This document shows positions 272 through 32,265 of a stretch of DNA of 64,000 nucleotides, piece after piece (position 1 is the stretch's first letter; the number at the start of each line of letters is the position of its first letter). The stretch covers positions 1 through 64,000 of the forward strand of contig JAFEBS010000033.1 of NCBI GenBank assembly GCA_018242525.1, in the 5' to 3' direction. This DNA is from Planctomycetota bacterium (lineage in GTDB: Bacteria; Planctomycetota; Planctomycetia; Planctomycetales; Planctomycetaceae). Position numbers and translations under genes: made by a program. Below the pieces are notes generated by a model. The model made no database searches. It saw nothing but the letters and a program-made list of their open reading frames with translations, and was not told the DNA's origin.

Positions 272-369
272 CAGTCCGTGGTAAAAGGGGTCAGACCCTC
301 TCCGGGCAATCGATTTTCAAGGTGAATCAACTGCCCTCCAAAGGGTCAGACCCCTTTTACCACGGACTG
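272..369. mobile_element. 98-bp palindromic element, copy A1, with flanking CTAG direct repeats
   Basis: The ends are CAGTCCGTGGTAAAAGGGG and its reverse complement, forming arms of about 28 bp around a partly paired centre that contains TTTTCAAGGTGAATC. CTAG lies immediately outside both ends (268-271 and 370-373). The flanks rejoin to the repeat CCCGCGGCTAG + YGCCTTGCGGCTCA, seen uninterrupted at 3149-3175. A second copy of the same length is at 31095-31192. No transposase is encoded, so if mobile the element is non-autonomous. Confidence 0.75.
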
Positions 370-23653: not shown

Positions 23654-23755
23654 GGGGTCTGGCACTTCGGAAATTCGGAATTGGCTGGAGTGGGTCCATG
23701 ATGGCGGGCCGGAGTTGAGTCCAGCCAATTCCGAATTTCCGAAGTGCCAGACCCC
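23654..23755. repeat. Long near-perfect inverted repeat (hairpin)
   Basis: Arms of about 37 bp start GGGGTCTGGCACTTCGG and end in the matching CCGAAGTGCCAGACCCC, with a loop of about 28 bases. It lies between two divergent genes and so could form a strong cruciform or RNA hairpin in both leaders. The GGGGTCTG tip resembles the cores of elements A and B in this window. Confidence 0.85.
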
Positions 23756-25308: not shown

Positions 25309-25448
25309 CCTCGTATTGAGGGCCGTGCTCTCAACCCAATTCGAGCGACCGCTTGAAAATCGCAACTGCCGCTCGCCCGGCGCACCCCGCATGGACTCTC
25401 CTAAATCACTTTGCAGAATGTTGGGACGGAATCTGGGAAGCCTCAAAA

Positions 25449-25527
25449 CACTAGCCCGACGCGCGAGCGAGGGATTCGTCGATGCGTGTCCAACTTGTTT
25501 ATCCCTCGCTCGCGCGTCGGGCTAGTG
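25449..25527. repeat. Palindromic repeat family C, intact copy
   Basis: Perfect 27-bp arms (25449-25475 and 25501-25527) begin CACTAGCCCGACGCGCGAGC and flank a 25-base loop containing GATGCGTGTCCAAC. A related copy at 31070-31241 is interrupted by element A2, and a decayed relative lies at about 47590-47700. It is intergenic, between a DUF1501 gene and a thioredoxin-fold gene. Confidence 0.85.
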
Positions 25528-25576
25528 TCTCAGGTTCATGCAACGCTGTTTAGATCCATTTTTGAAAGCCACCGCC

Positions 25577-27729: not shown

Positions 27730-27737
27730 CCCGGCTG

Positions 27738-27827
27738 TGCCCACCAAATGGGGTCTGACCCCCTCCCAATGTGGTGTCGATTCAAATCAGATTCCTGTGG
27801 CAGGGGTCTTACCCCATTTGGTGGGCA
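27738..27827. repeat. Palindromic repeat family B, copy B1
   Basis: Arms of about 25 bp start TGCCCACCAAATGGGGTC and close with the complement, with two mismatches. The centre contains ATGTGGTGTCGATTC and CCTGTGGCAGGGG. A second copy, in opposite orientation, is at 59062-59157. It directly follows the acyltransferase stop codon (27729) and could act as its 3' end structure. Confidence 0.78.
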
Positions 27828-28057
27828 AAGCCCAAGGTGGTCCGGCAGTCCATTGCGAAAATCGGATTTCTCCCGTCGTAACGATTATTCAGGTCGCCCA
27901 AAATCGATCGCTCGTAGGGAACGTCTTGAATCGTCGAATCGTTTGAGCGGGTTTTCGTAAGGTTCGAGGCAAACGAGCCGACTTGCCGTCAATCAATGTG
28001 CAAGAGTTGGTGGAATCGTCCGTACGACAACGCAACTCCTCATGCGATTTGGCCACA

Positions 28058-29819: not shown

Positions 29820-31019
29820 CTACGTCGTGTAGTCGGCGTTCAGTTCCACATATTCCTTGGTCAGGTCGGCCGTCCAATACCGGACCGCACCCGTGCCATG
29901 CGTCAGGGTCAGGTCGATGGTCACATTGCGGTTGTCGCGCAGGCTGGCCGAGACCTGTTTCGCGTCGAAGTCAACGGGGGCTCCGTCGCGATACAGCAGG
30001 AACCCGTTGACGACCAGTGACATGTCCACTTCCTGCAGTGGCACGCCTGCATAACCGGCGGCGGAAACGATGCGGCCCCAGTTGGGATCGGCACCGCAGA
30101 TCGCGGTCTTGACCAGCGGACTGTCGGCAATGACCTTGGCGATCCGGAACGCTTCGTCACGATTGCGGCAACCAGTGACATTCAATTGGACAAAATGGTG
30201 AGCCCCTTCGGCATCACGGATGATGTCCGTAGCCAGCTTCATGGCGACTTCATCCAGGGCCTGCTGAAACTCGGTTCGTTCGGCATCGGTCGTGGGACCG
30301 ACCCCGGCGGCGCCGTTGGCGAGCAGGATTACCGAATCGCTGGTGCTCTCGTGTCCGTCCACGCTGATGCAGTTGAACGAATCGGTGACGGCGTGCTTGA
30401 TGCCAGTCGCGGCGGCATCCAGTGAGAGCGCCGCATCGGTCATGATCACGCACAGCATCGTCGCCATGTTGGGGGCGATCATTGCGGCTCCCTTGCAGAC
30501 TCCGCTGATCCGGATGGTTTTGCCGCTGAGGACCACCGTGGCGGTGGCCTGCTTGGGAAACGTGTCGGTCGTCATCATGGCCCGGGCGGCATTGTGAAAT
30601 GCTTCCGGCGTCTCGGCCAGTTGCTTCGCGGCCGCAGGGATCCCCGTTTGAAACTTTTCCATGGGCAGGAATCGGCCGATGACGCCCGTGGAGCAAACCA
30701 GGACGTCGTCCGGAGCCGCCCCGATCTGCTGCGCAACCAGGGCCGTCATGGTCCTGGCATCCGCGATCCCTCGTTCCCCCGTGGCGGCGTTCGAGTTGCC
30801 CGAGTTCACGACCACCGCTCGAGCGGTCGCTCGCGGCAACCGTTCCCGTGAGACCTTGACCGGAGCCCCGCAAACCAGGTTGGTGGTAAACACCCCGGCA
30901 GCGGCACACGCGCGGTCGGAGACATACAAAGCGAGGTCCAGCTTCTCGGAATCGGCTTTGATTCCGCACAGGATGCCGGCAGCGGAGAAACCTTGGGGGA
31001 GCGGAAGCAAATCAGTCAT
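29820..31019 (-). CDS. argJ: Bifunctional glutamate N-acetyltransferase / amino-acid N-acetyltransferase
   Basis: About 399 residues from ATG 31019, which gives the family start LPLPQGFSAAGILCGIK; ATG 31061 would add a leader not typical of ArgJ. The enzyme makes N-acetylglutamate in the cyclic arginine pathway by moving acetyl from N-acetylornithine to glutamate. The autocleavage site is present in KGAAMIAPNMATML, where the Thr becomes the nucleophile of the beta chain. The oxyanion-hole and substrate region CSTGVIGRFLPM is also seen. It lies downstream of argC on the same strand with a 223-bp repeat-filled gap. Confidence 0.95.
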   Translation of the reverse strand: MTDLLPLPQGFSAAGILCGIKADSEKLDLALYVSDRACAAAGVFTTNLVCGAPVKVSRERLPRATARAVVVNSGNSNAATGERGIADARTMTALVAQQIGAAPDDVLVCSTGVIGRFLPMEKFQTGIPAAAKQLAETPEAFHNAARAMMTTDTFPKQATATVVLSGKTIRISGVCKGAAMIAPNMATMLCVIMTDAALSLDAAATGIKHAVTDSFNCISVDGHESTSDSVILLANGAAGVGPTTDAERTEFQQALDEVAMKLATDIIRDAEGAHHFVQLNVTGCRNRDEAFRIAKVIADSPLVKTAICGADPNWGRIVSAAGYAGVPLQEVDMSLVVNGFLLYRDGAPVDFDAKQVSASLRDNRNVTIDLTLTHGTGAVRYWTADLTKEYVELNADYTT

Positions 31020-31069
31020 TGAGCACCGTCTGTTGATAGTCAATTTGAAGAAATTGGTCATTCACAATA

Positions 31070-31241
31070 CACGAGCATGACGCGCGAGCGATAGCAGCCC
31101 GTGGTAAAAGGGGTCTGACCCTCTTCGGGCATGCGCTTTTCAAGGTGAATCTATTGCCCTCCAAAGGGTCAGCCCCCTTTTACCACGGGCTGATAGCGCG
31201 TTGGACACCCGTAGACCGGTCGCTCGCGCGTCGGGCTCGTG
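31070..31241. repeat. Palindromic repeat family C, copy interrupted by element A2
   Basis: The outer arms CACGAGCATGACGCGCGAGCG-like (31070-31090) and its complement at 31221-31241 match the arms of the intact copy at 25449-25527. The centre is displaced by the 98-bp element at 31095-31192, leaving a remnant with GTTGGACAC, the complement of the loop in the intact copy. It sits between argC and argJ. Confidence 0.78.
31095..31192. mobile_element. 98-bp palindromic element, copy A2, with flanking ATAG direct repeats
   Basis: Same length and same internal TTTTCAAGGTGAATC as A1. The tips are CAGCCCG and CGGGCTG where A1 has CAGTCCG and CGGACTG, a compensated base-pair change. ATAG flanks both ends (31091-31094 and 31193-31196); because ATAG is not self-complementary this is a true direct repeat. 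The element lies in the argC-argJ intergenic gap. Confidence 0.78.
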
Positions 31242-31242
31242 T

Positions 31243-32265
31243 TTACCTGCCGCACGGCAGTAATCCCATGGTCTCGGGCAACCCTGCCATCAGGTTCAGG
31301 TTCTGAATGGCGACTCCAGATGCTCCTTTGATCAGGTTGTCCAGGCACGAAATGATCAGCACCTTGCCTTTGACGATGCGGACCGTGATGTCGCAGAAGT
31401 TGGTGTACGAACTGTCCTTGGTCGCGGGAAGGTGATCCACGACGCGGATGAACGGCTTGCCGGCGTAGAACTGACGGTATTCCGCGAGTAACTCGTCCTG
31501 AGTGGCTGGCTTCTTCGGTGTCGCGTAGATCGTGGCCAGGATCCCCCGGTCCATCGGGACCAGGTGCGGCTGGAAAATCACTTCAACCGGTTGAGCGGAC
31601 GCCTGGGTCAGCACCTGCTCGATCTCGGGCATGTGTCGATGCGTTCCGACACCATAGGCCGAAAAGCTTTCGTTGCATTCGGCGTACAGGATATTCTGCT
31701 TGGGAGTCCGGCCGGCTCCGCTGACACCGCTCTTGGCGTCGATAATGATCCCGGTCGGTTCGACAAACCCGCCGCACAGGGCCGGGGCCAGACCGAGTAT
31801 CGAGGCACTGGTATAGCAGCCGGGATTGGCGACCAATTCGGCAGTCTTGATGCGTTCGGCGAACAGTTCCGGCAGGCCATAGGGAGTCGACCCCAGTCGA
31901 GTGGGATCGGTGTGGACATGGCCATACCACTGGGCGTAGACGCCGGGATCGGTCAGGCGATAGTCGGCACTCAGGTCGATCACCTTGCAGCCAGCGGCCA
32001 GGTATTCGGGGACAACCGCCATGCTGGCTGCATGTGGCAGGGCACAGAAAACGTATTCGGCTCGTTCCGCAACCTGTGCTGGCTTCAGATCTTCGCACCG
32101 GATATCGAGGCGGCCGGTCAAGCTGGGATGAACCGTCGAAATCGGCGGCGCCCCTTCCTGACGCGTCGTCACGGCGGTGACTTTGACCTCGGGATGGTTG
32201 ACCAGGATCTTGAGCAGTTCGAGCGCCGTGTAACCGGTCGCTCCCAGTATGCCGACGGTAACCAT
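31243..32265 (-). CDS. argC: N-acetyl-gamma-glutamyl-phosphate reductase
   Basis: A 340-residue enzyme that reduces N-acetylglutamyl phosphate to the semialdehyde with NADPH in arginine synthesis. The N-terminal Rossmann motif is [15 protein letters not shown]; the catalytic Cys is in [11 protein letters not shown], and KSGVSGAGR is the phosphate-binding region. The closing block [18 protein letters not shown] is diagnostic. Full length. First gene of an argC-argJ pair. Confidence 0.96.

Follow-up and report, generated by a model that had tools for sequence, protein, structure and literature searches.

A 98-bp miniature transposon nested in a palindromic repeat between argC and argJ, and the target word that accounts for such nesting in aggregate

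Why does one palindromic element, here called A2, lie inside another, a family C palindrome, in the short gap between argC and argJ of a planctomycete genome? The locus belongs to a 64,000-nucleotide stretch of DNA (the window) in which a preliminary description had seen two copies of element A, both within other palindromic repeats, and had suggested either that the element prefers to insert into hairpin-forming DNA or that only palindromes offer it neutral sites. The first idea was reasonable because IS1272 and TnSha1 do target hairpins (PMC5678879, PMC4923244) and some insertion sequences target REPs. We followed it through the genome of origin, which comprises 8.45 Mb in 99 contigs, and through a 2.4-Mb sample of it (28% of the genome, in contigs partly picked for holding copies of A), using home-made gene calls. 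The account that we favor, with a probability of about 0.85, is that element A is a miniature transposon moved by an IS1182/IS5-like group of DDE transposases, that A2 entered an ATAG site in a family C hairpin, and that the enrichment of copies in palindromic families follows from a taste for CTAG and not from any preference for hairpins.

The nested insertion

That A2 is 98 bp long with ATAG on both sides proved exact to the nucleotide (Table 1), and its position within a family C hairpin is confirmed. The arms on either side of it are complementary at 21 of 23 positions, and the residual loop GTTGGACACCCGTAGACCGG agrees with the family C loop (GTTGGACACGCATCGACGAATCCC, reverse strand), so the resemblance is not the coincidence of alignment that had been considered. 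Once A2 and a single ATAG are taken out, the flanking sequence pairs into a stem of 23 bp around a 26-nt loop. The insertion point is not the center of the palindrome, as first described, but the stem-loop junction, 3 nt from the left stem. The hosting copy consists of the core only, and positions 25449-25527, previously presented as the intact version of family C, are also the core alone, here of a complete unit of about 153 bp whose ends, defined from aligned copies, are CTAAATAGCGTTGCA...TGCAACGCNATTTAG.

Table 1. Features of the argC-argJ locus and related repeats (window coordinates, except in the last row, which gives contig and position)
Feature	Position	Strand	Remarks
Element A1	272..369	+	Inserted in a family B half-unit at its CTAG; flanked by CTAG left and right
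Family C full unit, uninterrupted	25401..25553	-	About 153 bp, ends CTAAA.../...TTTAG
argJ	29820..31019	-	Start MTDLLPLPQGF (31019)
Interrupted family C palindrome, left arm	31069..31091	.	ACACGAGCATGACGCGCGAGCGA
ATAG, left copy of target duplication	31091..31094	.	Its first base doubles as the final base of the C arm
Element A2	31095..31192	+	98-bp MITE, ends CAGCCCGTGGTAAAAGGGGTCTGACCC / GGGTCAGCCCCCTTTTACCACGGGCTG
ATAG, right copy of target duplication	31193..31196	.	
Residual loop of family C copy hosting A2	31197..31219	.	CGCGTTGGACACCCGTAGACCGG
Family C palindrome, right arm	31220..31242	.	TCGCTCGCGCGTCGGGCTCGTGT; adjoins argC stop codon
argC	31243..32265	-	Stop codon at 31243
A copies nested in family B or C	C26:272, C26:31095, C10:132714, C42:8613, C42:22866, C15:4513		

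The two ATAG copies, earlier called a real direct repeat, read as a true target duplication. Together, A2 and family C fill most of the gap between the two genes, and as RNA the nested stretch has a predicted fold of -114.8 kcal/mol (z = -11). Our own gene call and the start of the homologue in genome G013 place the beginning of argJ at 31019 rather than 31061. An empty site for A2 was found in none of the relatives searched; the argC-argJ spacer of G013 contains neither A nor C and aligns too poorly to reveal one. In such comparisons by DNA, coding sequence is about 75 to 80% identical to that of congeners, and spacers are mostly unalignable.

Another way to bring A and C together would be recombination between repeats that share AGCCCG, with no insertion at all. 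A chimera elsewhere in the genome (C42:8613-8710) has the A palindrome in place of the C core palindrome, with AGCCCG joints on both sides and the outer parts of C intact, and C and A also meet at two further loci. At the argC-argJ site, however, the ends of A2 are complete, the ATAG duplication is exact, and family C sequence continues past the element, which makes a recombinational origin of this joint highly improbable. The chimera is missing from G011, where the gap is about 187 bp shorter. At the two further loci (C9:45724 and C38:4748), family C units stand beside pieces of element A, and the joints would suit either an insertion of C into A or recombination between the two.

Element A and its likely transposase

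A2 and A1 are one repeat, 88% identical over 112 nt, and A2 has many full-length matches genome-wide, the best at 95%. Across the whole genome the 21-bp end of A has 201 matches within 3 mismatches, compared with 1 for a reversed control, and the element is therefore present in at least about 100 copies in 8.45 Mb. The 2.4-Mb sample holds 51 near-full copies, a number from which genome-wide abundance should not be closely extrapolated given how the contigs were picked. None of 14 congeneric genomes, three of them with ArgC 93 to 95% identical, holds a full-length copy, and in one of them (G006) the inner motif alone finds a short match. Full-length relatives at 77 to 78% identity do occur in a genome of another genus in the same family (G020), one of them flanked by TTAG/TTAG.

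These features identify element A as a non-autonomous miniature transposon (MITE). It is 98 bp long, with long terminal inverted repeats and no capacity to encode a transposase, it makes a target duplication of fixed length (4 bp), and it has its ends in common with an autonomous element from another order of the phylum. Its copies are dispersed, and insertion is visible by comparison with congeners that lack full-length A and with protein homologues that lack an A block, a comparison that extends to other copies and not to A2 itself. Two widely spaced pairs of poor ends in the sampled genome were considered as a long autonomous copy, and neither was convincing.

The autonomous element came from an exact-pattern scan for A ends in the genome_contigs collection, which returned four stretches. 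Three carry end pairs 95 to 109 bp apart and are A-like elements, flanked by TTAG/TTAG, by CTAT/CTAT and, in one case, by a CTAG on a single side. The fourth marks one terminus of a 1,483-bp insertion sequence in a Phycisphaerales MAG (L306:7-1489), flanked by CTAG/CTAT, whose ends (CAGCCCGTTGAA...) match A and enclose a 463-aa transposase; two or three positions differ between the ends of A and those of the insertion sequence (GTGGTAAAA versus GTTGAAAAA). A DUF772 transposase domain is recognized in the protein, and a DDE match falls just short of its cut-off. Its best family is IS1182 (NCBIfam NF033551), at 155.8 bits for the L306 protein and 157.7 to 180.4 bits for five relatives, all under the 270-bit cut-off, which leaves the partner transposase outside IS1182 by that threshold. 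Homologues about 50% identical are found on plasmids, with similar, CAG-CCGTTGA-like ends, and each of the five examined is bounded by a perfect 4-bp direct repeat (CTAA, TGTA, TTAG, GTAG, and TTTG). The similar ends and perfect duplications of these relatives fix the mechanistic class.

A different kind of mobilizer would be a Y1 (RAYT) transposase, with A as a REPIN-type palindrome. The genome has 18 Y1_Tnp matches, and one of these genes (within C71:3065-6349) lies inside an array of seven matches to the family B palindrome (GTGAGCCGCANGGCGCTAGCCGCGGGT), the arrangement seen in REP/RAYT systems (PMC3733652); this gene is likely the RAYT of family B. For element A itself, one could point to a truncated A end adjoining a Y1 pseudogene (L226) and to the inner motif GGGGTCTGACCC, which resembles other palindromes in the window and the A-core-like repeats of genomes G019 and G028. 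Yet A copies form no array around any of the 18 Y1 loci, although family B does so around one, and the full insertion sequence with A ends carries a DDE-type transposase. Element A and its relatives also make 4-bp duplications, which Y1 elements are not known to do. We consider it very unlikely that A is moved as family B probably is. Two further palindromes in the window, at 27733-27832 and 23654-23755, have a GGGGTCTG core (in one case GGGGTCTGACCCC) related to the inner part of A and do not have A ends; A-core-like repeats are common in both G019 and G028.

The preferred account would thus begin with a DDE transposase of the IS1182/IS5-like group, borne by insertion sequences with CAGCCCGTTGA ends, that mobilized A and duplicated a 4-bp, NTAR-like target, with CTAG favored by A. 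A2 would have landed between argC and argJ in the loop of a family C hairpin that was already there, at an ATAG (CTAT on the opposite strand) that was duplicated in the process. No transposase of the L306 group was detected in A's own genome, in a search run without a positive control, and A therefore appears to be an orphan there. We infer that such a group moved A within its own lineage and has since been lost.

Some copies have entered genes. One copy plus its duplication amounts to 102 bp, or 34 codons, and one frame of the consensus is free of stops. Overlap with called genes exceeds 30% in four of the 51 sampled copies, and at least three extend genes in frame. At C8:15799, A extends a 788-aa membrane protein by a block that five congeneric homologues lack; neighboring indels blur the alignment too much to support an exact net insertion of 102 bp. 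At C41:16896 and C32:76717, an in-frame A lies within the first 13 codons, and from their sequences these copies would sit in signal peptides. Element A is thus a MITE specific to its species and abundant there, one for which a transposase group has been identified and which makes 4-bp duplications and has inserted in frame in genes.

Target word and nesting

In 14 of 49 copies the same 4-mer stands on both sides, where shuffling predicts 5.3 (p<1e-4); five of the 14 pairs are not self-complementary (2.2 expected, p=0.04). Inverted pairs that are not self-complementary are also in excess (6 compared with 2.0 in shuffles, p=0.008). Flanks within one base of CTAG make up 70 of 102, compared with 3.5% of random intergenic 4-mers. 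In the 2.4-Mb sample CTAG is depleted 25-fold (observed/expected 0.04) and there is a 1.5-fold enrichment of CTGG and CCAG; for that reason CTGG and CCAG flanks, in direct and inverted pairs alike, are best read as decayed CTAG duplications. The excess of inverted pairs would be explained by the same decay. CTAA/TTAG is depleted 12-fold in this sample, and together these biases would presumably fit very-short-patch repair.

Placement of the copies can be set against this target. Families B and C hold 6 of the 51 sampled copies (12%; Table 1) but make up 1.3% of intergenic DNA, a nine-fold excess over random placement (p=6e-5). That A1 and A2 are each nested in a palindromic family stands, while the impression given by two copies out of two was an effect of small numbers. 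These families contain 28.9% of intergenic CTAG sites, and since A favors CTAG, insertion directed by that word alone predicts 5.1 to 12 nested copies, depending on the number of CTAG targets. The aggregate enrichment is explained by the target word, not by hairpin structure; under the preferred account, it would reflect families that hold many of the few CTAG sites in the genome. A2 itself used ATAG, not CTAG, and since only about 1% of intergenic ATAG sites fall within these families, the nesting of this one copy is probably no more than chance.

Comparison with random intergenic placement, the check that the preliminary description had proposed, thus bore out an enrichment in B and C and no preference for hairpins. 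A strong hairpin is present at the empty site of 2 of 51 copies (4%); the share is 2.9% for points drawn at random from intergenic DNA (p=0.44) and 16.7% for CTAG sites in that DNA. On these figures a hairpin preference of A was rejected. Nor are palindromes the only neutral sites, as most copies lie in plain intergenic DNA and a few in genes.

The same numbers weigh on the proposal that A was inserted by a structure-recognizing transposase of the IS1272 kind, one that recognizes or replaces stem-loops. Such enzymes exist, A1 and A2 do sit in palindromic families, and the chimera at C42:8613 looks like an exchanged stem-loop. Yet the hairpin counts run against it, and both A and the elements with related transposases duplicate 4 bp where IS1272 duplicates nothing; we hold hairpin targeting to be very unlikely as the route by which A spread. 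A narrower idea, which the chimera brings to mind, is that A and its transposase might now and then swap an entire stem-loop in the manner of IS1272; this is a long shot, if slightly less so. If true, it would mean that a single transposase group works in two ways, by sequence-specific insertion that duplicates the target and by replacement of hairpins.

A measured negative thus replaces the suggested hairpin preference, and the nesting is real but ordinary. The case also carries a caution: where a target word is strongly depleted, as CTAG is here, a good share of what is left of it lies in older repeats, and new elements will pile up there with no structural recognition at all.

Comparison with known systems

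The closest relatives are the IS1182/IS5-like insertion sequences with CAGCCCGTTGA ends, namely the L306 element and plasmid copies in pLB1, Solidesulfovibrio, Novosphingobium, Rhodovastum, and Methylocystis. Element A has in common with them about 20 bp of terminal sequence (as at the L306 right end) and NTAR-type 4-bp target duplications, but they are 1.4 to 1.5 kb long with a DDE transposase, whereas A is 98 bp long and has none. IS1272 and TnSha1 have in common with A a broad transposase family by name, IS1182, and palindromes as a possible target. They differ in attacking hairpins without sequence preference and in deleting or replacing the target without duplicating it (PMC5678879, PMC4923244); A copies are not directed to stem-loops, and they duplicate their target and do not replace it, with C42:8613 as one possible exception.

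REP and REPIN sequences with their RAYTs (PMC3733652), represented here by family B, are like A in being short, palindromic, high in copy number, and mostly extragenic, but A ends as a transposon does, duplicates 4 bp, and lacks a linked RAYT array. REP-specific insertion sequences, such as ISPsy8, ISPa11, ISPpu9, ISPpu10, ISRm22, and ISRm19 (PMC1525189), are likewise mobile elements found inside palindromic repeats; their association with REPs is specific, whereas that of A follows its target word and involves 12% of copies. Rickettsia palindromic elements (reviewed in PMC10969869) are, like A, short palindromic elements that occur in frame in protein genes, although A is mainly intergenic.
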